Assembly (NCBI GenBank): GCA_021774785.1 | Contig: JAJFIQ010000026.1 | Span: 558,001 to 622,000 of the forward strand | Origin: Emcibacter sp. | Lineage (GTDB): Bacteria > Pseudomonadota > Alphaproteobacteria > Sphingomonadales > Emcibacteraceae | Direction: 5' to 3' | DNA length: 64,000 nt | Part shown: piece after piece, positions 58,262 to 61,988 of the stretch | Layout of the letters: every line of letters starts with the position of its first letter | How positions within the stretch are numbered: position 1 is the stretch's first letter | The notes under the pieces: generated by a model | Database searches by the model: none | What the model was told of the DNA's origin: nothing | The model's input: the letters and a program-made list of their open reading frames with translations, nothing else | Translations under genes and position numbers: made by a program

Positions 58262-58690
58262 TTATTTGTTGACGATAACATCGGAAATAAACACGCGGGC
58301 CTGCTGGTGCCCCAGAACCCTATTGGTGATTATCTGAAAGGCATCCCCTAACAACGCCACGCTTACGGGTTGATTAACATCAAAGTAATCATGGGACAGT
58401 CGACTGGCCTCTATGACATAGGCGCTATTGAGCCGTGGCAGGTATTTTCTGGCCATGGCGCGTTTTTCACTATCGACCAATTTTACCAACACCGATACCG
58501 TCATATTGCCCTTTGGCCGACCTTTATGATACATGGTGACCACAAGGGGCGGAACATTAATATAGCTTTCCTTGGTAGCCTCACTATCGGCTTTTTTTTC
58601 TTCTGTTGCCACGGCATGGCTAAATGGTGTGGACCCTAATATTATCACAGTCAAGGTCATTAGAAATGTTCTGAATATATTGTCAGTCAT
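58262..58690 (-). CDS. Small exported or anchored protein with FliL-like C-terminus
   Basis: 142 residues. An N-terminal signal or anchor (about 8-26), then an acidic linker and a domain containing YINVPPLVVTMY, VSVLVKLVD and the terminal VFISDVIVNK. The pattern of an initial beta strand, a long helix and a final strand resembles FliL (flagellar basal-body associated) C-termini, but the similarity is weak. It is next to the flagellin-related propeller gene, which supports a flagellar or envelope link. Alternative: unrelated hypothetical protein. Confidence 0.5.
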   Translation of the reverse strand: MTDNIFRTFLMTLTVIILGSTPFSHAVATEEKKADSEATKESYINVPPLVVTMYHKGRPKGNMTVSVLVKLVDSEKRAMARKYLPRLNSAYVIEASRLSHDYFDVNQPVSVALLGDAFQIITNRVLGHQQARVFISDVIVNK

Positions 58691-58944
58691 GTATATTTTG
58701 CCTAAATGATAGCCCTATCGGAGGTTGTTTTCTTGCTCAGGTAGAAATTTACCCTAAGAAAGTCATTATTTCGTTAACGGATAATTTGCATTTTGCAATG
58801 CTTTTTTCAAAACTTAGTGAGATTTTTATACAATTTGCAACAGTAATAATCCTGAAGATATGAACCTTTGGTTGAAAAGGTACGTTTTCTGCCATAAACA
58901 AAAGTTGGCATATTTAATGCATAGTATTAATTGCCTCTGGAGCA

Positions 58945-59177
58945 GGGGCGGAGAACAGGTCTTTATCCGACCCCCCCAACGGGATTGATCTTACTTCGCC
59001 AACTCCTAAGCTTCATCCGATGAAGTGGAGTTAGGCGGCCCAGTTGATTATTGGTCGTCTCCTCATCGGAGGGAATATTGAGTTTAAGTATTTCTTTTAT
59101 GTGATTCGAGTTTAGGTATAAAATAACATAACTGTGTAAGAAGTGCCCCAAGTTGCGTAACGGGCACTTTTTTTTAT
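58945..59177 (+). ncRNA. Candidate structured small RNA ending at an orphan plus-strand terminator
   Basis: No plus-strand ORF precedes the terminator at 59141-59175. Upstream stems are: GGGGCGGA (58945-58952) with TCCGACCCC (58966-58974, one bulge); and a long hairpin 58998-59036 with GCC/GGC, AACTCC/GGAGTT and CTTCAT/ATGAAG around a CCG loop. An alternative helix pairs TCCGATGA (59016-59023) with TCATCGGA (59063-59070) and excludes the CTTCAT/ATGAAG stem. Both flanking genes are on the minus strand. I find no convincing sigma70 promoter, so the 5' end is uncertain. No known RNA family recognised; 6S RNA was considered but not supported. Confidence 0.45.
59141..59175 (+). terminator. Strong plus-strand intrinsic terminator without an upstream gene
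   Basis: AAGTGCCC (59141-59148) pairs with GGGCACTT (59162-59169) around a 13-nt loop, followed by a run of eight T (59168-59175). There is no A-run on the other side, so it does not serve the minus-strand gene at 59190. Confidence 0.85.
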
Positions 59178-59189
59178 GTTTTTCTGATG

Positions 59190-61988
59190 TTAAATAATTA
59201 ATCCGCCAGTGCCGCTACTAAATACAGACAGTCTGGCTAGGCCATCCTGATAATTGGCCAGCTGTTTTGCCAGATGAGGCGGAACGGGACCGCTGTTTAA
59301 TTTGGAATCTTTGAGTATTTGAGCCTTTACGGGATCAAAGGTCAGCGACCGGAAGGCGCGTTTGATGGTTTCCAGAGCTGTATCAATCTGTGCGCTGACA
59401 AATTCGGCTTCTTTTCGGGAGCGAAGGGAAAAACCAGATAAAAGTTTCAAGGCAAAAATGCCGCCCAATTTATCAGGGTTCGTTCCAATATCATCATCAT
59501 CCAGATTAAAAAGTTTTTCAGTCGATAAAATTTTGGTGGGCTGCATGCCGAATTTAACCAAAGCGTCACGCGCACCCTTGCCGGCAATTACCTCAACAGT
59601 AGACCCGTCTTTAGTTTCGATTTTGAGTTCCGGTCCATTGGTCCCCGTAGATTGCGTTGCTTTAATAAAGCGGAATGACAGACGCTGGATTTTCTTTGCC
59701 AGGCTGGTGAAGTCATCGCCTGAGCTGATGGTGACTTTTTGTGCGGCCTCGCCATTAACAGAAATAAAGAAATGATCACCGACACGGGCAGATGTCTGGG
59801 TTTCTATATCGCGGGTCTGGCTATTATCATAAAGGCCGGTTGGAAGACCCAGCTTGGTCAAAATGGATGATCCCGCGGCTGAAAAGGTAAGGGCTGTACT
59901 GCCGTTTGTACCGGTAATACCACCAAATTGTCTGATGAAGTCCGCAGTTCCTGTCGTGGCATTAATTTTGGCGGCAAAGCCGTCCGTGGTTCCGGTAAGG
60001 GTTGCTCCGGGCAAAGTGCCATTGGTTTTTCCGGCCACATAAATGGATCCGTTTTGTACGCTTAAGCCTTCTATGCGGTCTGTGCCGCTAGACCCAATAA
60101 AATGGGTAAAGCTGGCACTGAATGAGGCCCCACCGTCACTTAATTTGGTGATAAAGCCGTCTGCGCCACCGCTATGGCTATTAGTTATGGTACCACCGGA
60201 CAGAGAAGCATTAAATGAAGTACCAGCCACATATATATCGCCCGACGCATCAACGACAATGTCAGAAATACTGCCACCGCCCAGGTCCCCCAAATCAAAT
60301 GTCGCGAGTTCGATTGTGGGGTCTGTAACATCAAGTTTGCGAATGATAACCCGTCCGTCTTCTCTGGCGGCAACCAATATATTGCCATCGCCTGCTATGG
60401 CGACGGCCTCGCCAAACTCGGAACCCGCACCGCCAATTTGGGCAGAGGCAGTGAGTGCGCCATCGGTGCCATTAAGTTTTGTAACAAAAATATCTGATCC
60501 GCCACCATATGTGGTGGTGCTGTTCAGGCGCCCTGAAATTGTTCCGGTGACAATGACATCACCATTGGCATCAATAGCAAGGCTGTTGGCCTGATCAGTA
60601 GCAGAGGTATCCTGCTGATGGGTCCAGAGTTCCAGGCCACTGCTGTCAAATTTAGTGACAAAACTGTCCAGACCCGTAAATACGTCTGACGTGACCAATT
60701 CATCATTCACTTGACCTGCAATATAAATATTATCACTGCTATCCACGACAATATCAAAGGCTTCTGCATGATCAGAAGCTCCGAGCAGGCGACTAAACAA
60801 CAGATTGCCGGAAGCATCAAATTTGCTCAGGAAAACATCCTGGTCTGTGGCGGCATTAATCTGATTTTGAAAATCACCCTGTGAACTGCCAACCACATAG
60901 ACATTACCCAAGCTGTCAACGGCGGTACCATTGGCATGGGTTTCAAATAATTCGTCAGCAGATTCTATAATTTTGCCATCGTCATCAGTTAGGGGCGGCA
61001 AGATACTTGCTTGATCAGTTCCGGCGATAACGTTAGAAAATTCTGTGATTGGGGATGTGGTGGAAAGATCCCGCACTTTTGTCAATGTCGCTGTTTCAGT
61101 TTCACCAAATCCGACATCTTTATGGGCGCCCGTGATATAGAGCGATGGCTCTGAAGCCTGCGCTGTCAGGGTGATGGTTTCACCTGAATTGACGTTAACT
61201 TTCAGAGCAAATTTTCCATTACTTACCTCTTCGGCGGCAAAGCGGGTACTATATTTACTGACGGGATCACCATTGCCATCCAGGACGGTGACCGCATTGA
61301 TCTGCTGATTAATGAAAGATACCAGATTGGTCAGGTCCAAAGGTTCCGTCATTTGAGACAGGTCGATGGTGATATTATCATTGTCAGTTATTTTATTCAG
61401 GTTCACCGTGAAAACTTCGTTGCCGACAAGTCCCGGAATGACTTGGGTTTTGGAGCTGACGGGAAGGGTTGCCCCTAAAATATCGGAATTATTTTTACCA
61501 AGGCTGATATCGCTGAGTAAGCTGGGTTTCTTTTCCCCGAACATTAATGTGAGCTTTTCAAGTTCGGCCTCCCGCACGAAATCTTGAACCTGATTAAGCC
61601 CGCCACGGAATTGGGTGCTTAAATTGGCCAGCAGGGCTGACGGCGTTGTGTCATCTGCGGCATAATCAGCAATGGTTTTTAAATCATTGAGAGCAGTGAA
61701 GAGGGCAAAGAGTGCTTTTTCATCCTTACTTTCGGTTTGCTGGATGCTTTTTACATTCAGGTCAATGAAATCAGTTTTTCCCCGGACCGCATTGAAGCGG
61801 CCGGCCAATGTCCGAGCTTCCTTGCTGTCTAACAGATCCCAGGGCGTGATAACAGACGGACCTCTTTCAAAAGGGCGGGCTGAATTTTGAATGGCAGCCA
61901 CAGTTCTGGTCACCGTCCGGGCATTGAAATATGAACCCAGAAGATTAGCATCAAAATTGATTAAATTAAAATCACTAAAGTCAGCCAT
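59190..61988 (-). CDS. Flagellin-related protein with embedded SBBP-type beta-propeller (FlaEY-like)
   Basis: 932 residues. The N-terminal about 180 residues are helical (FSDFNLINFDANLLGSYFN, RTVAAIQNSARPF) and resemble a flagellin or hook-associated coiled end. A middle stretch near 195-300 has flagellin-IN-like repeats. From about 345 to 700 at least six blades follow the pattern AxDxxGNVYVVGxxxG, the SBBP beta-propeller repeat. A second flagellin-like C-terminal helix region with a hook-IN-like segment (FISVNGEAAQKVTI) closes the protein. Length and layout recall Caulobacter FlaEY. No signal peptide is visible. Flagellin glycosylation, secretion or regulation is inferred only from that likeness. 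Confidence 0.65.
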   Translation of the reverse strand: MADFSDFNLINFDANLLGSYFNARTVTRTVAAIQNSARPFERGPSVITPWDLLDSKEARTLAGRFNAVRGKTDFIDLNVKSIQQTESKDEKALFALFTALNDLKTIADYAADDTTPSALLANLSTQFRGGLNQVQDFVREAELEKLTLMFGEKKPSLLSDISLGKNNSDILGATLPVSSKTQVIPGLVGNEVFTVNLNKITDNDNITIDLSQMTEPLDLTNLVSFINQQINAVTVLDGNGDPVSKYSTRFAAEEVSNGKFALKVNVNSGETITLTAQASEPSLYITGAHKDVGFGETETATLTKVRDLSTTSPITEFSNVIAGTDQASILPPLTDDDGKIIESADELFETHANGTAVDSLGNVYVVGSSQGDFQNQINAATDQDVFLSKFDASGNLLFSRLLGASDHAEAFDIVVDSSDNIYIAGQVNDELVTSDVFTGLDSFVTKFDSSGLELWTHQQDTSATDQANSLAIDANGDVIVTGTISGRLNSTTTYGGGSDIFVTKLNGTDGALTASAQIGGAGSEFGEAVAIAGDGNILVAAREDGRVIIRKLDVTDPTIELATFDLGDLGGGSISDIVVDASGDIYVAGTSFNASLSGGTITNSHSGGADGFITKLSDGGASFSASFTHFIGSSGTDRIEGLSVQNGSIYVAGKTNGTLPGATLTGTTDGFAAKINATTGTADFIRQFGGITGTNGSTALTFSAAGSSILTKLGLPTGLYDNSQTRDIETQTSARVGDHFFISVNGEAAQKVTISSGDDFTSLAKKIQRLSFRFIKATQSTGTNGPELKIETKDGSTVEVIAGKGARDALVKFGMQPTKILSTEKLFNLDDDDIGTNPDKLGGIFALKLLSGFSLRSRKEAEFVSAQIDTALETIKRAFRSLTFDPVKAQILKDSKLNSGPVPPHLAKQLANYQDGLARLSVFSSGTGGLII

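Follow-up and report, generated by a model that had tools for sequence, protein, structure and literature searches.

The window, a 64-kb stretch of Emcibacter sp. DNA, probably encodes a small RNA that is free-standing and acts in trans; sigma-54 RNA polymerase would make it with the help of a LuxO-like regulator, and its C-rich loop would pair with mRNAs. Sequence comparison establishes the conservation of the gene, its promoter architecture, its structure and its co-occurrence with a luxO-like gene.

The proposed gene would work as follows. An active LuxO-like response regulator would bind TTGCAWWWTGCAA boxes ~100-170 bp upstream, and sigma-54 RNA polymerase would then transcribe the RNA, which would fold into a long hairpin exposing a nearly fixed C-rich loop, CGACCCCCAA, and end at its own terminator. 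The loop would most likely pair with G-rich stretches of mRNA and alter their translation or stability. In this way the gene would convert a phosphorelay signal into control at the post-transcriptional level, in the manner of LuxO and Qrr in Vibrio. Transcription, LuxO-like binding, pairing and the input signal are what we infer here; a quorum-sensing input would be an extrapolation from Vibrio.

Predicted gene and its parts

The initial annotation had pointed to an orphan plus-strand terminator preceded by stem-loops, and offered either an independent small RNA or the remnant leader of a lost gene. Read from the sequence, the 8-bp terminator stem AAGTGCCC/GGGCACTT (59141-59148 with 59162-59169), the eight T (59168-59175) and the upstream stems are where it had placed them. 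The list of open reading frames holds no plus-strand ORF of at least 60 aa between 58640 and 59361, so the terminator indeed has no plus-strand gene before it back to 58640. The remark that no promoter is clear was wrong, as there is a sigma-54 box at 58906-58921. The gene had escaped both simple scans because the promoter scan covered sigma-70 only and the terminator scan had a loop limit of 8. The features are:

58262..58690, minus strand: divergent neighbour, 142 aa, earlier called FliL-like; no family match
58786..58798, plus strand: upstream enhancer box 1, TTGCATTTTGCAA; matches the 13-bp LuxO UAS exactly and lies 147 nt ahead of the conserved RNA 5′ end
58828..58840, plus strand: upstream enhancer box 2, ATACAATTTGCAA; matches at 11/13, 105 nt before the conserved RNA 5′ end
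58906..58921, plus strand: sigma-54 -24/-12 promoter, TGGCATATTTAATGCA; predicted transcription start ~58932
58932..59175, plus strand: predicted small-RNA gene, ~244 nt, from the predicted start to the last T of the terminator T-run
58933..59000, plus strand: conserved 5′ core, leader GCCTCTGGAGCAGGGGC plus hairpin (58947-58953 with 58994-59000); from models R1 and R2 and covariation
58970..58979, plus strand: C-rich apical loop ACCCCCCCAA, closed by TCCG/CGG; candidate seed
59001..59032, plus strand: genus-specific hairpin with palindromic TTCATCCGATGAA; includes 59016-59023 of the proposed switch
59034..59059, plus strand: genus-specific hairpin GGCGGCC-CAGTTGATTATT-GGTCGTC; loop similar to the terminator loop
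59141..59175, plus strand: Rho-independent terminator; from sequence, fold and covariation
59190..61988, minus strand: convergent neighbour, a 932-aa SBBP beta-propeller protein, earlier called FlaEY-like

The plus strand folds better than its shuffles (z -2.70, 1 of 200 shuffles as good); the values for the minus strand are z -1.91 and 9 of 200.

Distribution and synteny

A DNA search of 40 genomes gave strong matches (E<1e-9) in 10 of the 15 congeners of the window's genome and in one further genus; another two genera gave weaker matches (E ~4e-5). Their alignment shows a conserved RNA 5′ end, GCCTCTGGAGCAG, the C-rich loop, and an upstream TGGCAY-N-TGC. We built two covariance models, R1 from the 5′ core of 14 sequences and R2, a joint model, from 28. 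At E<1e-10, R1 finds the RNA in 14 of the 32 genomes belonging to the window's family. The window's genus accounts for 11 of these, out of its 16 genomes, and three other genera for one each; genus g5 has none in 13 genomes. Matches at E 0.03-0.08 in three more genomes of the family are taken as chance. R2 extends the range to every one of the 29 Kordiimonas-type genomes at E<=0.1, with E<=1.5e-5 in 26, and finds 44 genomes at E<=0.02 among 296 of the order, including one from each of two further families. In a draw of 385 genomes of the class, the window's own genome was the sole match.

DNA matches at E>0.01 and R1 matches at E 0.0099-0.1 were treated as chance, except those f5 and f8 matches that R2, neighbour genes or promoter later confirmed. 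Of the 35 stretches given by a pattern scan, 12 had neither neighbour gene, and 11 of these were set aside as chance; one of the 12 (L083) is the same RNA as L138, lying at the edge of its stretch.

A homologue of the 932-aa protein is convergent behind the RNA in 42 of the 43 model loci of two families, the exception being G003, and the 142-aa neighbour is found by tblastn in 14/14 loci of the first family (that of the window) and 10/29 of the second (Kordiimonas-type). The third and fourth families also have both neighbour genes beside the RNA. Of the 14 relatives that lack the RNA, 13 (G009, G012 and 11 g5 loci) have the neighbour genes at most 140 bp apart with no RNA between; the other, G007 of the same genus, is missing the 142-aa neighbour too. 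As RNA-less loci keep the paired protein genes, the RNA behaves as a discrete, losable gene. These results support a free-standing small-RNA gene conserved in four families of marine alphaproteobacteria, and with promoter, core and synteny all conserved across them, the first suggestion of the initial annotation, an independent small RNA, is supported.

Its second suggestion, that a lost plus-strand gene left behind its 5′ leader or a riboswitch, finds some encouragement in a possible alternative pairing within the RNA (see below) and is nevertheless extremely unlikely: no same-strand gene follows in the window, in those 42 of 43 model loci the RNA is followed by a gene of the opposite strand, and the RNA has its own promoter and usually a T-run, the promoter and loop being conserved across four families.

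The same convergent arrangement, and the closeness of the two neighbours in the 13 RNA-less relatives, could be read as the mark of a cis-antisense RNA, whose opposite transcription would hinder read-through between the flaEY-like and fliL-like genes or which would pair with their joint mRNA. We consider this quite improbable, as antisense action has no need of a fixed C-rich loop and covarying hairpins, G003 (64% complete) has the RNA without a flaEY-like match, and G052 carries a second copy of the loop elsewhere.

Family searches detected SBBP beta-propeller repeats in the 932-aa neighbour, whereas the 142-aa one had no credible match; the names FlaEY and FliL given to them are therefore unconfirmed. 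Four g5 genomes (G021, G023, G041 and G043) carry the flaEY-like beta-propeller gene with no Flagellin_N match, which makes a flagellar role of that gene doubtful.

Sigma-54 promoter

In 44 of 45 loci the RNA is preceded, at a distance of 25-28 nt, by a sigma-54-like motif (TGG[CT]A, 6-8 nt, TG); in 39 of them the distance is exactly 27 nt. Composition-only shuffles have the motif at the same position in 0.4% of cases. The 45-locus counts here and below leave out a tandem copy (L147) and a second copy (L189). Chance alone would give isolated sites of this type in the window, so it is the fixed position that serves as evidence; from it, transcription is predicted to start no more than ~2 nt from the conserved end of the RNA. 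The sole exception is the locus of G018 (L011), where by eye a sigma-70-like TTGTCT-17-TATATT takes the place of the sigma-54 site. This locus keeps the RNA core and lacks the sigma-54 site and the enhancer boxes, and the LuxO-like gene is missing from the genome. An rpoN gene was present in all 15 genomes tested, with or without the RNA.

Enhancer boxes

The range from -230 to -40 was searched for the 13-bp consensus TTGCAWWWTGCAA, the published LuxO UAS, which belongs to the sigma-54 qrr promoters of Vibrio, overlaps SypG sites, and occurs twice in the V. fischeri qrr1 promoter (PMC10162802, partial text). Loci with sites have one to four palindromes of this type upstream of the RNA. Sites matching at 10/13 or better are present at 43 of 45 loci, 41 of 45 having two or more and 12 having an exact one. 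Such a site appears in 24% of shuffles, which keep composition only, and the motif was first noticed in these same sequences. Positions are regular, usually ~-167, -148 and -125 in the Kordiimonas-type family and ~-147 and -105 in the window's genus. With up to one mismatch allowed, the whole window matches only at 58786-58798, and exactly there, against 1.2 matches expected by chance; the argument for the enhancer rests accordingly on conservation.

G018 and G107 have no enhancer site and G101 has one weak site at -89. At the G107 locus (L142) the RNA and its sigma-54 box come without LuxO boxes, and another palindrome, TTGTCttaaatagaGACAA, stands at a similar distance (by eye). The exact box of the window also lies ~95 nt upstream of the divergent 142-aa gene, and control may be shared.

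LuxO-like activator

A PF00158 search of nine genomes gave 73 bEBPs. One reciprocal-best-hit group, with 7 members, occurs only in G000, G011, G017, G030, G033 and G060, all of which have the RNA with boxes. Among the nine genomes it is absent from G018, whose RNA has neither boxes nor a sigma-54 site, and from G009 and G019, which have no RNA; G018 and G019 are both 100% complete, and the absence from G009 is less sure because that draft is 95% complete. Presence of a LuxO-like protein thus tracks boxed RNA promoters in these nine genomes, as a co-occurrence seen in sequence. When 64 of the 73 proteins were placed in a tree (the 9 of at most 380 aa being left out), the 7 members grouped with two further G060 proteins, a cluster of 9 supported at 100/99; one of the two, L262, has a long branch and its placement is unsure. 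G060 has four LuxO-like bEBPs, two of them outside the orthologue group.

For all 7 members LuxO (NF041946) is the best NCBIfam model, at 524-625 bits, below its curated cut-off of 800. The own-genome copy scores 586.6 bits against 380.2 for the next model, and in a PDB search, run for this copy only, its best match was LuxO 5ep0 (E 1.9e-120). An alanine scan of V. cholerae LuxO identified eleven residues needed for DNA binding (PMC11407668, partial text). The 7 LuxO-like proteins keep 7-10 of these, the own-genome copy 10; the other 66 bEBPs average 5.1 and reach no more than 8, a number seen in the two G060 relatives from the same tree group. Of four LuxO-like sequences, three have the sigma-54 contact motif GAFTGA and one (L215) has GSFTGA.

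A PAS hybrid kinase with an Hpt domain adjoins the luxO-like gene in G030, and a lone receiver-domain protein adjoins it in G000. The own-genome luxO-like gene (L263:9163-10604) adjoins a lone receiver-domain protein and an N-formylglutamate amidohydrolase gene, the latter described as the usual neighbour of alphaR8 sRNAs (PMC12559287, partial text). Rfam gave no match at E<=0.1 at this locus.

The initial annotation had also raised a link to motility, which is unproven: the neighbours are unconfirmed as flagellar, and the boxes point to a LuxO-like activator and not to FlbD. Put as an explanation, the RNA would belong to a flagellar checkpoint, made by sigma-54 and FlbD along with hook and flagellin genes and tuning flagellar mRNAs. 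The sigma-54 promoter, the neighbour called FlaEY-like and an FlbD in the own genome (L205, 754.5 bits against a cut-off of 750) would suit such an RNA, as would the use of sigma-54 and FlbD by Caulobacter middle and late flagellar genes (PMC3930126, partial text). Yet the enhancer matches that of LuxO, and among nine sigma-54-like sites in nine stretches around flagellin genes, themselves putative as flagellin promoters, only one has a box (>=9/10). FlbD does not track the boxes, since its orthologues occur also in G018 and G009, which lack boxes or RNA; seven g5 genomes have flagellin without the RNA, and the four named above have the flaEY-like gene without Flagellin_N. We judge the flagellar explanation unlikely, and favour control by the LuxO-like regulator.

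Relation to known RNAs

Qrr RNAs, driven by LuxO and sigma-54, are the well-known quorum-sensing device of Vibrionaceae, and are themselves short structured RNAs with their own terminator. The RNA described here resembles them in its sigma-54 -24/-12 promoter, its upstream TTGCAWWWTGCAA boxes and its putative LuxO-type activator, and in being likewise short, structured and self-terminated. It differs in having no Rfam sequence match, in its one long hairpin with a CCCCCAA loop, and in its place in another phylogenetic class, beside a beta-propeller gene. By its promoter, the predicted gene would work like a Qrr gene, and by sequence it is not a member of the Qrr family. Rfam 15 reported no family at gathering score, Qrr included, for the window and eight loci; at E<=10, 58691-59189 drew five chance-level matches, none to Qrr. 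A 6S assignment was dropped because the 6S RNA of this genome sits elsewhere, and other Rfam families gave chance-level matches only. We found no earlier description of the RNA in Rfam 15 or in the open-library literature searched. One paper brings together LuxO, Qrr and Alphaproteobacteria, with Qrr, in the part of its text available, only for comparison (PMC12559287).

The LuxO-like proteins share with LuxO (NF041946, 5ep0) the Receiver-AAA+-HTH architecture and the GAFTGA motif, with 7-10 of the eleven DNA-binding residues in place, and differ from it in scoring 524-625 bits against the 800 cut-off and in an input by phosphorelay that is putative; SypG-type proteins or other LuxO relatives are not separable from them here. 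Taken together, the comparison leans, by a modest measure, towards a Qrr-like circuit of Emcibacter- and Kordiimonas-type bacteria, in which a phosphorelay-fed LuxO-like regulator, sigma-54 and LuxO boxes would drive an unrelated mRNA-controlling small RNA. If so, the LuxO-to-sRNA wiring is either much older than Vibrio or has moved between classes with the RNA replaced, and would outlive the RNA it drives. For these little-studied marine bacteria it offers a specific candidate sRNA, activator and seed.

The exposed C-rich loop also recalls GsrN, an alphaproteobacterial sRNA of Caulobacter, in which such a loop pairs with the G-rich katG mRNA leader (PMC5869019, partial text); GsrN differs in being part of the sigma-T stress response.

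Structure of the RNA

The terminator and the stems are genuine. Comparison with relatives shows the terminator to be more than chance, and the core hairpin covaries as well. For the core hairpin HP2, 89.7% of cells are paired and none of 500 shuffles reaches the covariation score; 9 of 15 pairs are changed on both sides, a number reached by 16 of 500 shuffles, and the number of pair types, a weak measure, is reached by 438 of 500. The alignment used had been fitted to part of the structure, and two of five measures are weaker. For the terminator, in 11 same-genus RNAs (one without letters there), 4 of 11 pairs are changed on both sides and no shuffle in 500 reaches the score. A T-run of at least five follows the RNA in 41 of 47 rows within the stretch read.

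At least 5 of the first 16 nt pair with the far side of the loop in all 32 minimum-energy folds computed, which cover the 29 RNAs of the second family, one tandem copy, and the RNAs of the third and fourth families. The two strands of this outer stem pair at -20.1 kcal/mol with their own partners and at -16.8 kcal/mol when swapped between species (0 of 5000 permutations), though relatedness inflates such tests. The 16-nt loop ACTCGACCCCCAATCG is identical in 29/29 Kordiimonas-type RNAs; its core recurs with small variation in the window's family, the exact CGACCCCC missing in 3 of 14.

The window's genus has extra hairpins between core and terminator, of which the third hairpin (59001-59032) has hardly any covariation and the fourth (59034-59059) has none. 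This is the region where the initial annotation saw two mutually exclusive folds. The segments, TCCGATGA at 59016-59023 facing TCATCGGA at 59063-59070, are present and may switch in this way. The alternative helix has 85% of cells paired in the genus, 17 of 500 shuffles reach that figure and the covariation score, and 2 of 8 pairs are changed on both sides; the local hairpin uses the same palindromic letters. Hairpins of the switch region were not seen in the RNAs of other families (47 rows read). A loop motif, CAGTTGnGTA, recurs in the fourth hairpin, in the terminator (59141-59169) and in further stretches of G011 (L004).

Candidate targets of the loop

Pairing of the loop with the leaders of seven luxO-like genes and of the window's flaEY-like and fliL-like genes was no better than with shuffles. 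A flagellin mRNA target, read through the codons (C/T)TG GGG GTT, was rejected as it fitted only 2 of 18 flagellin ends. We counted 173 sites in 7 genomes with TTGGGGGT 1-13 nt before an ATG. Among the 110 of these matches listed there are six plausible starts, with no gene common to the six, and all the ORFs together give two between-genome similarities, one of them with an RTX-repeat protein. An excess of TTGGGGGT sites over the reversed pattern was set aside because reversing the pattern controls poorly for codon use.

The RNA might instead bind a protein, through the C-rich loop or through GGA motifs as a CsrA-type sponge, rather than pair with mRNA. Loop invariance and a GGA in the same-genus 5′ leader would fit, but the leader GGA is missing in most Kordiimonas-type RNAs (by eye; L144 has one), and we give protein binding a low probability. 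A CsrA sponge as such, which would call for several conserved GGA motifs in loops, was rejected, as most second-family RNAs are missing the GGA in the leader. Pairing with mRNA remains our preferred reading of the loop.

Two genomes carry a further copy. In G086 (L147/L054, C1:34294-34462) a single promoter is followed by two tandem RNA hairpins, of which the second is closed by a stem of its own, and G052 has a second RNA-like copy (L189, C1:1298649-1298714) with the same 16-nt loop and without a sigma-54 site at the usual place.
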